Assembly: GCF_000710615.1 (NCBI RefSeq)
Contig: NZ_JDTH01000001.1
Span: forward strand, 310,001-374,000
Direction: 5' to 3'
Length of the DNA: 64,000 nucleotides
Origin: Haladaptatus cibarius D43
GTDB taxonomy: Archaea > Halobacteriota > Halobacteria > Halobacteriales > Haladaptataceae
The notes beneath the pieces are model-generated. The model searched no databases, was not told where the DNA came from, and saw only the letters and a list, made by a program, of their open reading frames with translations. Shown piece after piece: positions 34,075 to 49,983 of this stretch. The translations under genes were made by a program, and so were the position numbers. Each line of letters begins with the position of its first letter. Within the stretch, counting starts at the first letter, position 1.

Positions 34075-34188
34075 AAAACCGCAAAAGAGCGCCCGAAACT
34101 AGTCTTTTCGTTTTTCGACCGACAGAGGCTTTAAATACCATCACAATCCAGCAGGTGGTTTTATTTCGTGGCCTGCGGAGAGACGCGC

Positions 34189-34656
34189 ATGCAGAAAGTC
34201 ACCATCGAGGACGTGGATTCCCGAATGAGCGCGGCGGACGTTCGTCGAGGTCTCTCCGACGGCCTCGGGTCGACGGATTTGGCCATCAACTACTACGAAC
34301 TCGCCCCCGGCGACAGTTTTGCGTTCGGCTATCACGCCCACGTCAGACAAGAAGAAGTATTCTACATCCAATCGGGTTCGGTGACGTTCGAAACGGAAAC
34401 CGGCGACGTGGCGGTCGAAGACGGAGAAATCGTTCGGTTCGCTCCCGGCGAGTTCCAGTGCGGGGTGAACGAGGGCGACGAGCGTGTGGTGGCCTTGGCA
34501 CTCGGCGCACCACAGGATTCCGAACTGGACGAAATGCGACGTGATTGCAAGGAGTGTGGAGAGCAAACCCCGAACACGCTCGAAATGGCCGACAGAGGCG
34601 AGGAACTCGTGACCTACTGTCTCGACTGTGGAGCGGAAACCGGACGGTTCGATTAG
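34189..34656 (+). CDS. Cupin with C-terminal zinc ribbon, first of two tandem copies
   Basis: A 155-residue protein. Residues about 25-110 are a cupin beta barrel with the metal motif GYHAHVRQEEVFYIQSGSVTFE and a second half AVEDGEIVRFAPGEFQCGVN. The C-terminus has two CxxC pairs (CKECGEQ, CLDCGAET), a rubredoxin/zinc-ribbon knuckle. ATG 34189 matches the start of the paralogue and has GGAG 8 bp upstream; a GTG at 34168 would be leaderless from the TATA-like CTTTAAATAC. The substrate is unknown. The second copy lies 67 bp downstream. Confidence 0.85.
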   Translation: MQKVTIEDVDSRMSAADVRRGLSDGLGSTDLAINYYELAPGDSFAFGYHAHVRQEEVFYIQSGSVTFETETGDVAVEDGEIVRFAPGEFQCGVNEGDERVVALALGAPQDSELDEMRRDCKECGEQTPNTLEMADRGEELVTYCLDCGAETGRFD

Positions 34657-34723
34657 ATGATTGTTTACTCGAACCGATTTGGTTGACGGATGGATTTTTC
34701 CGCCTACCGAGGTATTAGGAGAT

Positions 34724-35191
34724 ATGGAGAAAACCACGATTGACGATGTGGACGGCTTCATGAGCGCGGCGTCGGTCACCCGTCCGGTCGGGAAGGCGCT
34801 TGGAACGAGCGATATGGCTATCAACTACTACGAACTCGCGCCGGGTGATAGCTTCTCGCCCGGTCTGCACACCCACTTCGACCAAGAGGAGGTGTTTTAC
34901 GTCCAGTCCGGAACTGCGACGTTCGAGACGAAAGAGGAGGACGTGGTCGTTGAAGCGGGTGAAATCGTCCGATTCGCGCCCGGCGATTACCAGCGCGGAC
35001 ACAACCATGGCGACGAGCGCGTGGTGGCCTTGGCTCTTGGCGCACCCGAAGAGAGCGAATCGGGTGAACTCCTGCGTGACTGTCCCGAATGTGGCGAACA
35101 GACACAGCATTGGATGCGAATCCCGGACGAGAAGAACGTCGTTGAAGTGTACTGTCTCACTTGCGACACTGTGACCGGGACGATGGACTGA
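34724..35191 (+). CDS. Cupin with C-terminal zinc ribbon, second tandem copy
   Basis: A 155-residue paralogue of the preceding gene, same length and domain order: MEKTTIDDVDGFMSA, cupin motif GLHTHFDQEEVFYVQSGTATFE, VEAGEIVRFAPGDYQRGHN, then CPECGEQ and CLTCDTVTG. The metal site is complete here (H-x-H, E, H). An SD-like TAGGAG precedes the ATG. The GGDERVVALALGAP-type strand is shared with the first copy, so the two arose by tandem duplication. Confidence 0.87.
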   Translation: MEKTTIDDVDGFMSAASVTRPVGKALGTSDMAINYYELAPGDSFSPGLHTHFDQEEVFYVQSGTATFETKEEDVVVEAGEIVRFAPGDYQRGHNHGDERVVALALGAPEESESGELLRDCPECGEQTQHWMRIPDEKNVVEVYCLTCDTVTGTMD

Positions 35192-35266
35192 GAAGACGGT
35201 TTGCCGTCCTCATTCTCTGGCCGTCACGATTATTGATACGTATGCTGACCTTTGGTGCGAGCATTC

Positions 35267-35854
35267 ATGAGCGACGACATTCCCGGCTACACCTTCGGCG
35301 AGGAGTCCGTCCCCGAATCGCCAATCGACATGCCCGCCTTCAATCGGCTCAAAGAAACCGTCCTGTTCACCGAGGAGGACGAAGAATATCTCCGGATGGC
35401 GGGCGAGGTGCTGGACGGGCAAATCGGCGACGTCCTCGATACGTGGTACGAGTTCATCGCCGACCATCCGCATCTGATTCAGTATTTCAGCACGCCGGAG
35501 GGCGAGCCAATCGAGGACTATCTCGACCGCGTGCGGGAGCGATTCGGCCAGTGGATTCGGGACACCTGCAGCCCACCTTACGACGAGGACTGGCTGAACT
35601 ACCAGCAGGAAATCGCCCTGCGGCACACGAACGCGAAAAAGAACGAAACCGACGACGTGGATTCGGTCGAACACATCCCCTTCCGCTACATGTCGGCGTT
35701 CATCTACCCCATAACGGCGACGATGAAGCCGTTTCTGAAAAACGGGGAGTACAGCGGAGACGACGTGGAGAGGATGCACAGCGCGTGGTTCAAAGCGGTT
35801 GTGTTGCAGGTGACACTGTGGAGCGAACCCTACGTTAAGGACGGGGATTTCTGA
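35267..35854 (+). CDS. Protoglobin
   Basis: A 195-residue single-domain globin of the protoglobin family. PGYTFGEESVPESPI is the N-terminal extension, and the proximal heme-binding histidine is in EIALRHTNAKKNETD, close to the Methanosarcina protoglobin pattern (RH-x3-KKNxTD). It binds O2, CO or NO and may act in gas sensing or detoxification. Start at ATG 35267. No partner signalling domain is attached, so it is a stand-alone globin. Confidence 0.9.
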   Translation: MSDDIPGYTFGEESVPESPIDMPAFNRLKETVLFTEEDEEYLRMAGEVLDGQIGDVLDTWYEFIADHPHLIQYFSTPEGEPIEDYLDRVRERFGQWIRDTCSPPYDEDWLNYQQEIALRHTNAKKNETDDVDSVEHIPFRYMSAFIYPITATMKPFLKNGEYSGDDVERMHSAWFKAVVLQVTLWSEPYVKDGDF

Positions 35855-35884: not shown

Positions 35885-36178
35885 CTATTCGACGTTTTCC
35901 AGTTCTCGCTCCACCAACTCGTCAAAATCCACATCCGCAGAATCGTACTGCTCTCTGTGTCTCAGGGCGATTTTCCCTGTCTCCGTGATTTCGTACAAGC
36001 CTGAACTTTCGGCAGGCCCGATTTTTTGAACCAGTCCGTAGTCTTCGAGAATTGGCAAACGGACATTCAGATGCGTTCGCTTCTTTCCGATTTCGACAGA
36101 GATGTTTGCGGCCACATTTCGGCGACCGTCGGAAAGAGCCTCCAATATTAGAAAATCAGTAGGCCGCTGAAGTTTCAC
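35885..36178 (-). CDS. Winged-helix transcriptional regulator
   Basis: A 97-residue winged-helix protein starting at GTG 36178 (MKLQRPTDFLILEAL). The helix-turn-helix is around ANISVEIGKKRTHLNVRLPIL, and the wing around LVQKIGPAESSGLYEITETGKIAL, like the phage PhiH1-repressor-type regulators of haloarchaea. Three copies of a 17-bp semi-palindrome lie directly upstream and could be its operators. Confidence 0.8.
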   Translation of the reverse strand: MKLQRPTDFLILEALSDGRRNVAANISVEIGKKRTHLNVRLPILEDYGLVQKIGPAESSGLYEITETGKIALRHREQYDSADVDFDELVERELENVE

Positions 36179-36179
36179 G

Positions 36180-36740
36180 AATTTACTACCTTAGAGTCGA
36201 TTGCTACCAGTGATTCTTAAAATTACTTACTATCATTAGAAATTGCTAAAAGTATTTTTGGACAATAATTGCTATCGGTAATTATATGGTAAATCTCCTC
36301 GAAAACCCTGCCATGAAGCCACTGAGAATTCGCCAGTAGTTCGATGATGAATCAAACGGGGCGATGCTGAAGACACCAACCCCGCGAACGCTTCCACGGA
36401 AGCCCACGGAAGCATGACCACCTACCCAACCGTGGGACAAAAACCTCCCGCACGCACCCACGAATCGCGCGAAGACGATACCTCACCGATTTCCACCCGA
36501 AACGGTGGCCTTTCTCCACGAGGGCGGAGTTGCACGCGAAACGCAACTCTCGGAGAATCAGTTCGGTGGTTTTCCACCCGAACAAAGGGGGTTCGACAAC
36601 TGTTCACAACGTCCCCTCCCTCTCTCGAAAATCGGGCCGAAATCGCACCGTTTCGGCAGGTTGATTCGGGTCGAACGCGGTCTGTCGAATGTGGCCTTCG
36701 ATGGCATTCTCCGTGCCCCTTCGTTTCCACTGGAAACCAC
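36180..36740. other. Putative replication origin: AT-rich DNA plus origin-recognition-box-like elements
   Basis: A gap with no convincing gene. 36180-36300 is AT-rich, like an unwinding element. Then come ORB-like elements. The minus strand at 36716-36738 reads GTTTCCAGTGGAAAC then GAAGGGG, very close to the haloarchaeal ORB with G-string. The plus strand at 36568-36591 reads GGTTTTCCACCCGAAC then AAAGGGGG. A partial copy at about 36488-36504 reads ATTTCCACCCGAAACGG. The minus strand at 36378-36402 has TTCCGTGGAAGC, then a GGGG run. No orc1/cdc6 is adjacent; one is at 48853. Confidence 0.5.
36199..36283. repeat. Three copies of a 17-bp semi-palindromic repeat
   Basis: Copies at 36199-36215 (GATTGCTACCAGTGATT), 36241-36257 (AATTGCTAAAAGTATTT) and 36267-36283 (AATTGCTATCGGTAATT). 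The consensus AATTGCTAnCnGTnATT is nearly symmetric at its ends. They lie in an AT-rich stretch just upstream of the winged-helix gene. They may be operators, or iterons of a replication origin. Confidence 0.5.
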
Positions 36741-36763
36741 CGGATTTCGGGCGGTGGGTCGGC

Positions 36764-37114
36764 GTGACCGACGACTCGCCGGACGGTTCGAATGACTCGC
36801 GGAATGGTTCGAAGGACGATTCCGAACAGCAAAACGACCGCTGGGAGCGCGTTGCTCGTGAGACACTGCAACACGTGCTGGTGCAGTACGCCCGCGACGC
36901 CGAAATCACGCTCGACCCGATTGGGGACACCCTCTACTGGGGCAACGAACTGAGCGAAGAGCAGGTCGAGACGGCCCGGCAACTCGTCTTCGATTTGGAG
37001 TACGTCACGGAGGAGTATCTGGCCCGACTGTGTTCCAATACGGAACCGTGGCAGGACGAGGTGGAACGAACGCCGACGCGACTGCCGCCGGGGCCTGCTG
37101 ACGAGGACGATTGA
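36764..37114 (+). CDS. Hypothetical acidic protein beside the ORB-like elements
   Basis: About 116 residues from the GTG at 36764. A polar, disordered N-terminus (DDSPDGSNDSRNGSKDDSEQ) precedes a helical domain (RWERVARETLQHVLVQYARDA, ELSEEQVETARQLVFDLEYVTEEYL) and an acidic tail. I do not recognise it. An ORB-like element lies 26 bp upstream, so it could be an origin-associated gene, but this is only position. The reading frame continues further upstream without a better start. Confidence 0.55.
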   Translation: MTDDSPDGSNDSRNGSKDDSEQQNDRWERVARETLQHVLVQYARDAEITLDPIGDTLYWGNELSEEQVETARQLVFDLEYVTEEYLARLCSNTEPWQDEVERTPTRLPPGPADEDD

Positions 37115-37179: not shown

Positions 37180-37971
37180 ATGACAGAGATTCCGTCACCC
37201 GGCTTGGGAACCTCCGGCAACAAAGACGCGGGACAGTGTGCCGAAACCGTACAGACCGCGCTCGAACTGGGTTACCGCCACGTAGACACCGCGCAGATGT
37301 ACGATAACGAGGAACCGGTCGGTGAGGGCATCGCCCGCGCCGACGTCTCCCGCGAGGACGTGTTTCTCGCCACGAAAGTCCTGCCGGACAACCTCGCGCA
37401 CGACGACGTGCTCGAAACCACCGACGAAAGCCTCGACAGACTCGGCACGGAGTACGTCGATTTGCTCTACGTTCACTGGCCGATGAAGGCCTACGACGCA
37501 GAAGACACCCTACCCGCGTTCGACAAAATCTCGGAATCGGGCAAAGTCCGAAACATCGCGGTCAGCAACTTCACGCCCGAACTGCTGGACGAGGCGCGCG
37601 AAATCCTCGACAACCCAGTCCTCGCCAATCAGGTCGAGATGCACCCGCTTCTCCAGCAAGAGGAACTGCGAGACTACGCGAAAAAACACGACATCACGCT
37701 GGTCGCCTACTCGCCGATTATGCAGGGCGAAGCCGACGACGTACCTGAACTCCGCGACATCGCCGAAAAGCACGGCGTGACGCCGACCCAAATCAGTCTC
37801 GCGTGGCTCAAGCAGGCAGAAAACGTCGTCCCGATTCCGAAATCGACGGGCGAAAAACACCTTCAGCAGAATCATTCGCTTCCTGACCTCGACGCCGAAG
37901 ATGTGGAGAAAATCGACTCCATCAACCGCGAAGAACGGCTCGTTGACCCGGACGGGGCCGCGTGGAACTAA
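37180..37971 (+). CDS. Aldo/keto reductase
   Basis: A 263-residue AKR (TIM barrel) that reduces carbonyl compounds with NADPH. Catalytic tetrad: Asp and Tyr in HVDTAQMYDNEE, Lys in FLATKVLPDN, His in LYVHWPMKAY. The C-terminal cofactor motif VVPIPKSTGEKHLQQN is present. ATG 37180 (MTEIPSPGLGTSGN) is preferred; the frame is open upstream to the end of the previous gene. Close to 2,5-diketogluconate-reductase-like members; substrate unknown. Confidence 0.92.
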   Translation: MTEIPSPGLGTSGNKDAGQCAETVQTALELGYRHVDTAQMYDNEEPVGEGIARADVSREDVFLATKVLPDNLAHDDVLETTDESLDRLGTEYVDLLYVHWPMKAYDAEDTLPAFDKISESGKVRNIAVSNFTPELLDEAREILDNPVLANQVEMHPLLQQEELRDYAKKHDITLVAYSPIMQGEADDVPELRDIAEKHGVTPTQISLAWLKQAENVVPIPKSTGEKHLQQNHSLPDLDAEDVEKIDSINREERLVDPDGAAWN

Positions 37972-48778: not shown

Positions 48779-48852
48779 AGCCGAGACAGCCAGAATCCTG
48801 CCTTTTTGTCGCTGGCGAAGGATTAAGTACCTCCGGAAGCGTGGTGAAAGTG

Positions 48853-49983
48853 ATGGCAGACGACCCCGACGAGGGGATGTTATCGTGGGACGAGTCGGTG
48901 TTCCGCGAGGAGCACGTCTTCGAAATCGACTACGTGCCGGAGACATTCGAACACCGCGCGTCCCAGATGCAGAGCCTTCAGTACGCGCTCAGGCCAGCAG
49001 TTCGTGGGTCGCGCCCCCTCAACGTCATGTCACGGGGACCGCCCGGGACTGGCAAGACGACCGCGGTACAGAAGTTGTTCGACGAACTGTCGGCCCAGAC
49101 CGAGGTTCGAACCGTGCGCGTCAACTGTCAGGTGGATTCGACGCGATACGCGATTTTCTCGCGTATCTTCGAGGGTATTTTCGAGTACGAACCGCCGTCG
49201 AGCGGCATTTCGTTCAAAAAGCTGTTCCGCCAGATAACCGAAAAACTGGTCGAAGAGGACGAAGTCCTCGTCGTCGCGCTGGACGACGTGAACTACCTGT
49301 TCTACGAAGGAGAGGCCTCGGACACCCTCTACTCGCTCCTGCGCGCTCACGAAGCCCACAGCGGGGCGAAAATCGGCGTCATCGTCGTCTCCTCCGACCT
49401 CAATCTGGACGTTATTGAGGAACTGGATACACGGGTTCAGAGCGTCTTCAGGCCGGAAGATGTGTACTTCCCGGTCTACGACCGCGAAGAGATTGTCGGC
49501 ATTCTCGGCGAGCGCGTCAAACGCGGCTTCCACGAGGGCGTCATCGGCCCGGAAGTGCTTGAGCGCGTGGCCGAACTGACCGCCGAAAGCGGCGACCTCC
49601 GGGTCGGCATCGACCTGCTCCGCCGGGCCGGACTGAACGCCGAAATGCGCGCCAGTCGAACCGTCAGTTTGCAGGACGTAGAGGATGCCTACGAGAAATC
49701 CAAGTTCGTTCACCTCAGTCACAGTCTGCACGCACTGAGCGACAACGAAGTCGCTCTCGTCCGTGTCATCGCCGAACACGACGGCGAGCAGGCGGGCGAA
49801 GTGTACGAGGTGTTCCACGACGAGACGGAGTTGGGCTACACACGCTACTCGGAGATCATCAACAAACTCGACCAACTCGGCATCATCGACGCCACCTACA
49901 CCAATATCGAAGGCCGCGGTCGGTCGCGGTCGCTGTCACTGCGATACGATCCGGATGCGGTGTTGGCACGGTTGGATGATTGA
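48853..49983 (+). CDS. orc: Orc1/Cdc6 family replication initiator
   Basis: A 376-residue AAA+ protein. Walker A GPPGTGKTTAVQKLF, Walker B VVALDDVNYLFYEG (Asp-Asp rather than Asp-Glu), sensor 1 IGVIVVSSDLNLDVIEEL, sensor 2 SGDLRVGIDLLRRAGLNAE, and a C-terminal winged helix (LSHSLHALSDNEVALVRVIAEHD to IEGRGRSRSLSLRYD). It fits the Cdc6-2 type. No ORB-like repeats lie beside it, but an orphan set is at 36.4-36.74 kb. ATG 48853 is preferred; GTG 48841 would add four residues. TATA-like TTAAGTACC is at 48824-48832. Confidence 0.9.
   Translation: MADDPDEGMLSWDESVFREEHVFEIDYVPETFEHRASQMQSLQYALRPAVRGSRPLNVMSRGPPGTGKTTAVQKLFDELSAQTEVRTVRVNCQVDSTRYAIFSRIFEGIFEYEPPSSGISFKKLFRQITEKLVEEDEVLVVALDDVNYLFYEGEASDTLYSLLRAHEAHSGAKIGVIVVSSDLNLDVIEELDTRVQSVFRPEDVYFPVYDREEIVGILGERVKRGFHEGVIGPEVLERVAELTAESGDLRVGIDLLRRAGLNAEMRASRTVSLQDVEDAYEKSKFVHLSHSLHALSDNEVALVRVIAEHDGEQAGEVYEVFHDETELGYTRYSEIINKLDQLGIIDATYTNIEGRGRSRSLSLRYDPDAVLARLDD

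Follow-up and report, generated by a model that had tools for sequence, protein, structure and literature searches.

A conserved noncoding locus of facing origin recognition boxes far from oriC1 in Haladaptatus, a candidate Orc1-A-binding control site

In Escherichia coli, the datA locus, located outside the origin at a conserved position of the chromosome, carries initiator boxes and limits re-initiation. Bacterial parS clusters occur only in the origin-proximal portion of the chromosome. In the haloarchaeon Haloarcula hispanica, oriC2D, a region located downstream of cdc6E and rich in origin recognition boxes (ORBs), represses oriC2, likely through titration of Cdc6E (PMC3936714). ORB function has also been described in Sulfolobus, in which ORBs bind Orc1 with a defined polarity and steer MCM between inverted ORBs (PMC12141716). 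The Sulfolobus Orc1 paralogue Orc1-2 regulates transcription as part of the DNA-damage response (PMC9738581). A non-exhaustive literature search revealed ORB-rich control regions only beside cdc6 genes, and none far from them.

The genome of Haladaptatus cibarius D43 (G000) comprises 3,926,724 bp in 13 scaffolds. The window analysed here is the 64-kb stretch C1:310001-374000 of a 985,075-bp scaffold; positions lacking a scaffold prefix refer to this window. A region of about 250 bp without a gene (C1:346.5 kb), about 220 kb from oriC1, carries the ORBs listed in Table 1 and is referred to as the orphan ORB locus. The comparison included Haladaptatus litoreus (G003), H. pallidirubidus (G004), H. 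halobius (G002), H. salinisoli (G006) and Haladaptatus sp. DYF46 (G008) and, outside the genus, Halomicrococcus gelatinilyticus (G009) and several Halorussus species (genus g3). Sites were scored with a 21-column ORB matrix trained on 39 oriC1 ORBs of Haladaptatus, orphan sites being left out of the training. Training ORBs score from 28.4 bits up, and the possible maximum is 35.8.

Scanning with an ORB matrix, derived from Haloferax and Haloarcula origins, had been proposed in a first-pass annotation of the window; the matches obtained here with the Haladaptatus matrix are far above background. The 64-kb window contains four matches of at least 8 bits, every one inside the orphan ORB locus. 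Three are the scored sites of Table 1, and the fourth, a plus-strand match at 36724 (10.2 bits), is the palindromic partner of the minus-strand ORB at 36716. In the 464 kb around the locus, 18 matches reach at least 16 bits; the reversed matrix gives 0, and 20 column-permuted matrices give 0.1 on average (maximum 1). Thirteen of these matches are found beyond the five ORBs of oriC1; the orphan element itself comprises four sites. The pattern at 36716 is unique in the genome at zero mismatches, a result discounted as evidence because the pattern had been taken from the very site in question; scoring relied on the oriC1-trained matrix instead.

Table 1. Positions of the orphan ORB locus, its component sites and the neighbouring genes in the 64-kb window.
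Feature	Position	Strand	Remarks
Conserved noncoding element (orphan ORB locus)	36487..36740	.	Alignments and profile; 9/9 Haladaptatus genomes
Mini-ORB A (TTTCCACCCGAAAC)	36490..36503	+	13.2 bits; 93% mean column conservation vs 66% in the rest of the element
Mini-ORB B (GTTGCACGCGAAAC)	36529..36542	+	Repeat family D1; 39 bp from A; 87% conservation
Left ORB (TTTCCACCCGAACAAAGGGGG)	36571..36591	+	G-string rightward, i.e. inward; 17.2 bits in H. cibarius
Conserved GTTCGACAAC...TCACAA stretch	36590..36612	+	Runs on from the left ORB; 83% conservation
Right ORB with G-string (TTTCCAGTGGAAACGAAGGGG, 36716-36738)	36716..36736	-	G-string leftward, i.e. inward; 31.1 bits
Cupin genes	34168-35191		Upstream; syntenic left border together with protoglobin
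Protoglobin gene (PF11563)	35252..35854	+	Upstream; in several species the left border of the synteny
Inserted HTH gene with AT-rich DNA upstream of it	35885..36300	-	Outside the conserved element
Aldo/keto reductase gene (PF00248)	37180..37971	+	Downstream of the element wherever a genome examined has it

The layout of the element is simple: two mini-ORBs about 40 bp apart are followed by two facing ORBs ~145 bp apart, measured start-to-start. The right ORB is a full ORB with a score on a par with those of oriC1 ORBs. The left ORB is weak in H. cibarius, reads TCTCCACCSGAAANNGAGGGG-like in most relatives and is decayed in H. pallidirubidus. Both ORBs had been recognized in the first-pass annotation, which placed the left one at 36568-36591, and a weaker site listed there at 36488-36504 corresponds to the core of mini-ORB A; mini-ORB B was missing from that list. 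A further weak site at 36378-36402 turned out to be a short CCACGGAAGC direct repeat outside the conserved block, and its best score of -13.8 bits excludes it from the ORBs. The AT-rich end described at 36180-36300 is present, but it is not conserved and adjoins the inserted HTH gene. This gene spans 35885-36178, and none of the seven syntenic loci examined has it.

Two other kinds of function were considered for the element. A structured noncoding RNA was rejected, as Rfam yielded no match and the covariation term was slightly unfavourable. A coding role was judged unlikely, as most reading frames are interrupted by stops in the majority of species and none stays open in every one. The adjacent stretch 36767-37114 encodes a 115-aa protein that matches no known family and has homologues elsewhere in the H. 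cibarius genome and in Halorussus. The gene is missing from the syntenic loci examined in other Haladaptatus, except for an N-terminal remnant in H. litoreus. A role of the element tied to it was rejected in view of this absence and the lack of a known family.

A profile search identified the element in 9/9 Haladaptatus genomes, with E values ranging from 5e-35 to 3e-56. Outside Haladaptatus, only weak profile matches were obtained (E of at least 8e-6), and these were not counted as orthologues. The same gene neighbourhood was found in the seven other Haladaptatus stretches examined, in the order cupins (plus protoglobin in several species), element, aldo/keto reductase, lipoprotein, MOSC and acyl-CoA dehydrogenase. 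The start-to-start spacing of the left and right ORBs is 145 bp in five species, 144 bp in H. salinisoli and 146 bp in sp. DYF46. The ORB blocks reach a mean column identity of 87%, as against 66% for the remainder of the element (circular-shift p = 0.004). In Halomicrococcus, a convergent ORB pair 133 bp apart is located between the same protoglobin and reductase genes, and the DNA between the two ORBs barely aligns. A strict convergent-pair pattern matched 2/392 genomes; it misses 8/9 known Haladaptatus elements and is therefore too strict to be informative.

In H. cibarius, oriC1 contains five ORBs and is located at C1:124.0-125.25 kb, beside orc1-A (C1:125249-126739, 497 aa). The distance from the element to oriC1/orc1-A ranges from 179 to 286 kb across the genus. 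ORBs outside oriC1 are widespread among haloarchaea. With no more than 1 mismatch allowed, a degenerate ORB pattern found at least 3 matches in each of 42 haloarchaeal genomes, the reversed-pattern controls all giving 0. On the 22 chromosomes with a located orc1-A, 170 ORB matches were distributed as follows: 79 within 3 kb of the gene, 48 between 3 and 30 kb from it, 38 between 30 and 300 kb, and 5 farther away. The 91/170 sites more than 3 kb from orc1-A, most of which are within 300 kb, are called satellite ORBs. Their median distance is 1.7% of the half-chromosome, and 8.1% for sites more than about 30 kb away. Kolmogorov-Smirnov p-values for clustering near orc1-A (1e-52, and 3e-22 once sites closer than about 30 kb are left out) are inflated by the relatedness of the genomes and by the rounding of some chromosome lengths; the direction is clear. 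The element is one among many satellite ORBs around oriC1.

Halorussus carries a separate orphan pair, arranged in tandem with a spacing of 134 bp in most of nine species and located roughly 60-180 kb from oriC1. H. cibarius has this site too (C1:109182-109405); its tandem pair has a spacing of 203 bp and lies 16 kb from oriC1. In both genera, the pair is flanked by a convergent S9 peptidase gene and a small gene, the product of which has a ...DIIVD end in Halorussus. Because the two genes point at each other, the pair cannot be a promoter element of either.

Other orphan sites recur as well. A divergent ORB pair with an exact start spacing of 56 bp was observed in several haloarchaeal families (L083:17620-17696; G001:C1:1179486, G002:C1:2768688, G006:C1:1792918, G009:C1:1625025, G335:C1:2359384, G050:C1:1729930, G275:C1:2407240 and G141:C1:1636749). 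In genome G005, the pair maps to the 5' end or the interior of a putative DNA polymerase D small subunit gene, identified by eye. A single YTGCAGTSGAAACSRAGGGG-like ORB recurs 88-163 kb from oriC1 (G001:C1:1062894, G000:C1:223239, G002:C1:2659523, G005:C1:1854880, G006:C1:1923377 and G008:C22:734665); in G001, it is beside an apparent tRNA gene. Solitary ORBs of near-identical sequence flank orc1-A at about 4 kb and 6 kb on either side (G000:C1:121100 and 131336) and recur in most Haladaptatus species. Like the left ORB of the element (Table 1), some orphan ORBs elsewhere run on as GGGGTTCG...TCACA, and inner oriC1 ORBs run into a G-run, a pattern in which selection bias of the profile is possible.

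The first-pass annotation read the locus as a possible orphan replication origin. That it is orphan and made of ORBs is borne out, as the boxes are of the oriC1 type, occur genus-wide and have no orc gene beside them; the designation as an origin is not. The element shares the ORB core and the GAAGGGG G-string with haloarchaeal oriC1 (the orc1-A/cdc6A origin). Inverted full ORBs with G-strings are also what a secondary or dormant origin, using Orc1-A in trans, would feature, and dormant origins are known in Haloferax mediterranei; those, however, keep an adjacent cdc6 gene (PMC4595724). In the element, the G-strings point inward, whereas the two inner oriC1 ORBs of the same genomes point outward around an AT-rich region. 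The reversal matters because, in Sulfolobus, ORBs of defined polarity steer MCM between the inverted boxes (PMC12141716). AT content in the element does not exceed 57% in any 60 bp, in contrast to 63-90% at oriC1 of the same genomes. Haladaptatus shows no conserved AT-rich unwinding region, either within the element or next to it. Cumulative skew, a check suggested with the origin proposal, peaks near oriC1 at 120-140 kb of the 464-kb stretch and has no extremum at 346 kb. No orc gene is linked to the element. The nearest one is 12 kb away in H. cibarius, as the annotation had stated. This gene (48841-49983) encodes a 380-aa Orc (NF001626) that is 93-98% identical in the other eight Haladaptatus genomes and variably placed: its distance to the element is 12 kb in two species and about 62-430 kb in the other seven. 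The 380-aa Orc, for which the annotation had suggested ChIP (at 48853), was rejected as a partner because its linkage to the element is not conserved; the oriC1 initiator Orc1-A is likelier. Taken from these features, the element is probably not a replication origin, and a weak or dormant one is improbable. Were the element a relic, left by a former origin or by an integrated element, the absence of both the orc gene and the unwinding region would be explained, yet species of two genera retain the ORB blocks and their spacing within a stable gene order as nearby bases diverge. This is unlike a relic and makes such a history very improbable.

The element might instead be an Orc1-A-controlled promoter element, tying the downstream aldo/keto reductase gene to the replication cycle. 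It is located upstream of the reductase in the genomes carrying that gene, and Orc1-2 of Sulfolobus (PMC9738581) provides a precedent for an Orc1 protein acting on transcription. This role is nonetheless unlikely. A fixed position relative to the gene is not observed: in the eight species measured, between 86 and 442 bp separate the right ORB from the start of the reductase gene while the ORB-ORB spacing is fixed, and another gene intervenes in H. cibarius. In 12 Halorussus genomes, no ORB lies upstream of the best reductase homologues. A survey of 80 haloarchaeal loci with a reductase homologue (530 kb) revealed strong upstream ORBs only in Haladaptatus and Halomicrococcus, with two stray matches of about 14 bits elsewhere, and other orphan ORBs sit between convergent genes. 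Another explanation is that dispersed ORBs bound by Orc1-A mark the origin domain, organizing or segregating the origin-proximal chromosome as parS does in bacteria. Satellite ORBs are likewise origin-proximal, and many are single or variously oriented, both in favour of this explanation. They match, however, the box of the replication initiator rather than that of ParB; nothing points to a partition protein and no partner protein is known, and the fixed spacing and multi-site build of the element exceed the needs of a simple mark. We regard this explanation as rather improbable; it ranks behind the promoter role and ahead of the dormant origin.

The reading we prefer, with a probability of about 0.5, is that the element is a non-origin Orc1-A-binding locus near oriC1 that helps control initiation at oriC1. 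Several initiator boxes are found outside the origin, at a conserved place, in 9/9 Haladaptatus genomes, and a pair is present in Halomicrococcus. Orc1-A is the likely binder; it is orthologous to Sulfolobus Cdc6-1 and Aeropyrum Orc1 (PDB 2qby and 2v1u, both structures of ORB-bound initiators). The genomes show directly that the ORBs are present, that they keep their spacing and inverted polarity, where they lie relative to oriC1, and that neither an unwinding region nor a linked orc gene accompanies them; Orc1-A binding and a titration or control function are what we infer. The two facing ORBs and the two mini-ORBs would bring several Orc1-A molecules together in a single defined complex. At roughly 180-290 kb from oriC1, the element is copied early in each round, and its copy number doubles soon after initiation. 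The doubled element would then draw Orc1-A from oriC1, or hold or inactivate it there. In this way re-initiation would be limited, much as by datA in E. coli and, according to the proposal, by oriC2D in Haloarcula.

The comparison with these systems also reveals differences. Like oriC2D, the element is a cluster of initiator boxes and probably not itself an origin. In contrast to the element, which has two ORBs and two mini-ORBs of the oriC1 type far from the cognate orc gene, oriC2D features 11 ORBs in 722 bp, is directly beside its own cdc6 and acts on oriC2 (PMC3936714). The element resembles datA in having predicted initiator boxes at a conserved non-origin place; Orc1 and ORBs replace DnaA and DnaA boxes. 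The number of sites counts against pure titration, as oriC1 alone contains five ORBs. The weak left ORB of H. cibarius, its decay in H. pallidirubidus and the missing element at the nearest Halorussus reductase homologues also count against this reading. Since the sites at the element are few, titration would therefore be shared with other satellites, or the element would change the state of Orc1-A. We tentatively suggest, as an idea that may well prove wrong, that haloarchaea have a network of conserved Orc1-A sites over the few hundred kb around oriC1 that times initiation through free or active Orc1-A. Such a network would be an Orc-based counterpart of datA/DARS, with some fixed-spacing modules (convergent at about 145 bp in Haladaptatus, tandem at 134 bp in Halorussus).

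ORB scans alone will call false origins. The archaeal block on double firing of Orc/Cdc6 origins is poorly understood. If the proposed role is true, distant, conserved non-origin initiator sites of fixed architecture would provide a concrete, deletable element for testing it, and origin control of the bacterial style would have arisen around an Orc-type initiator.
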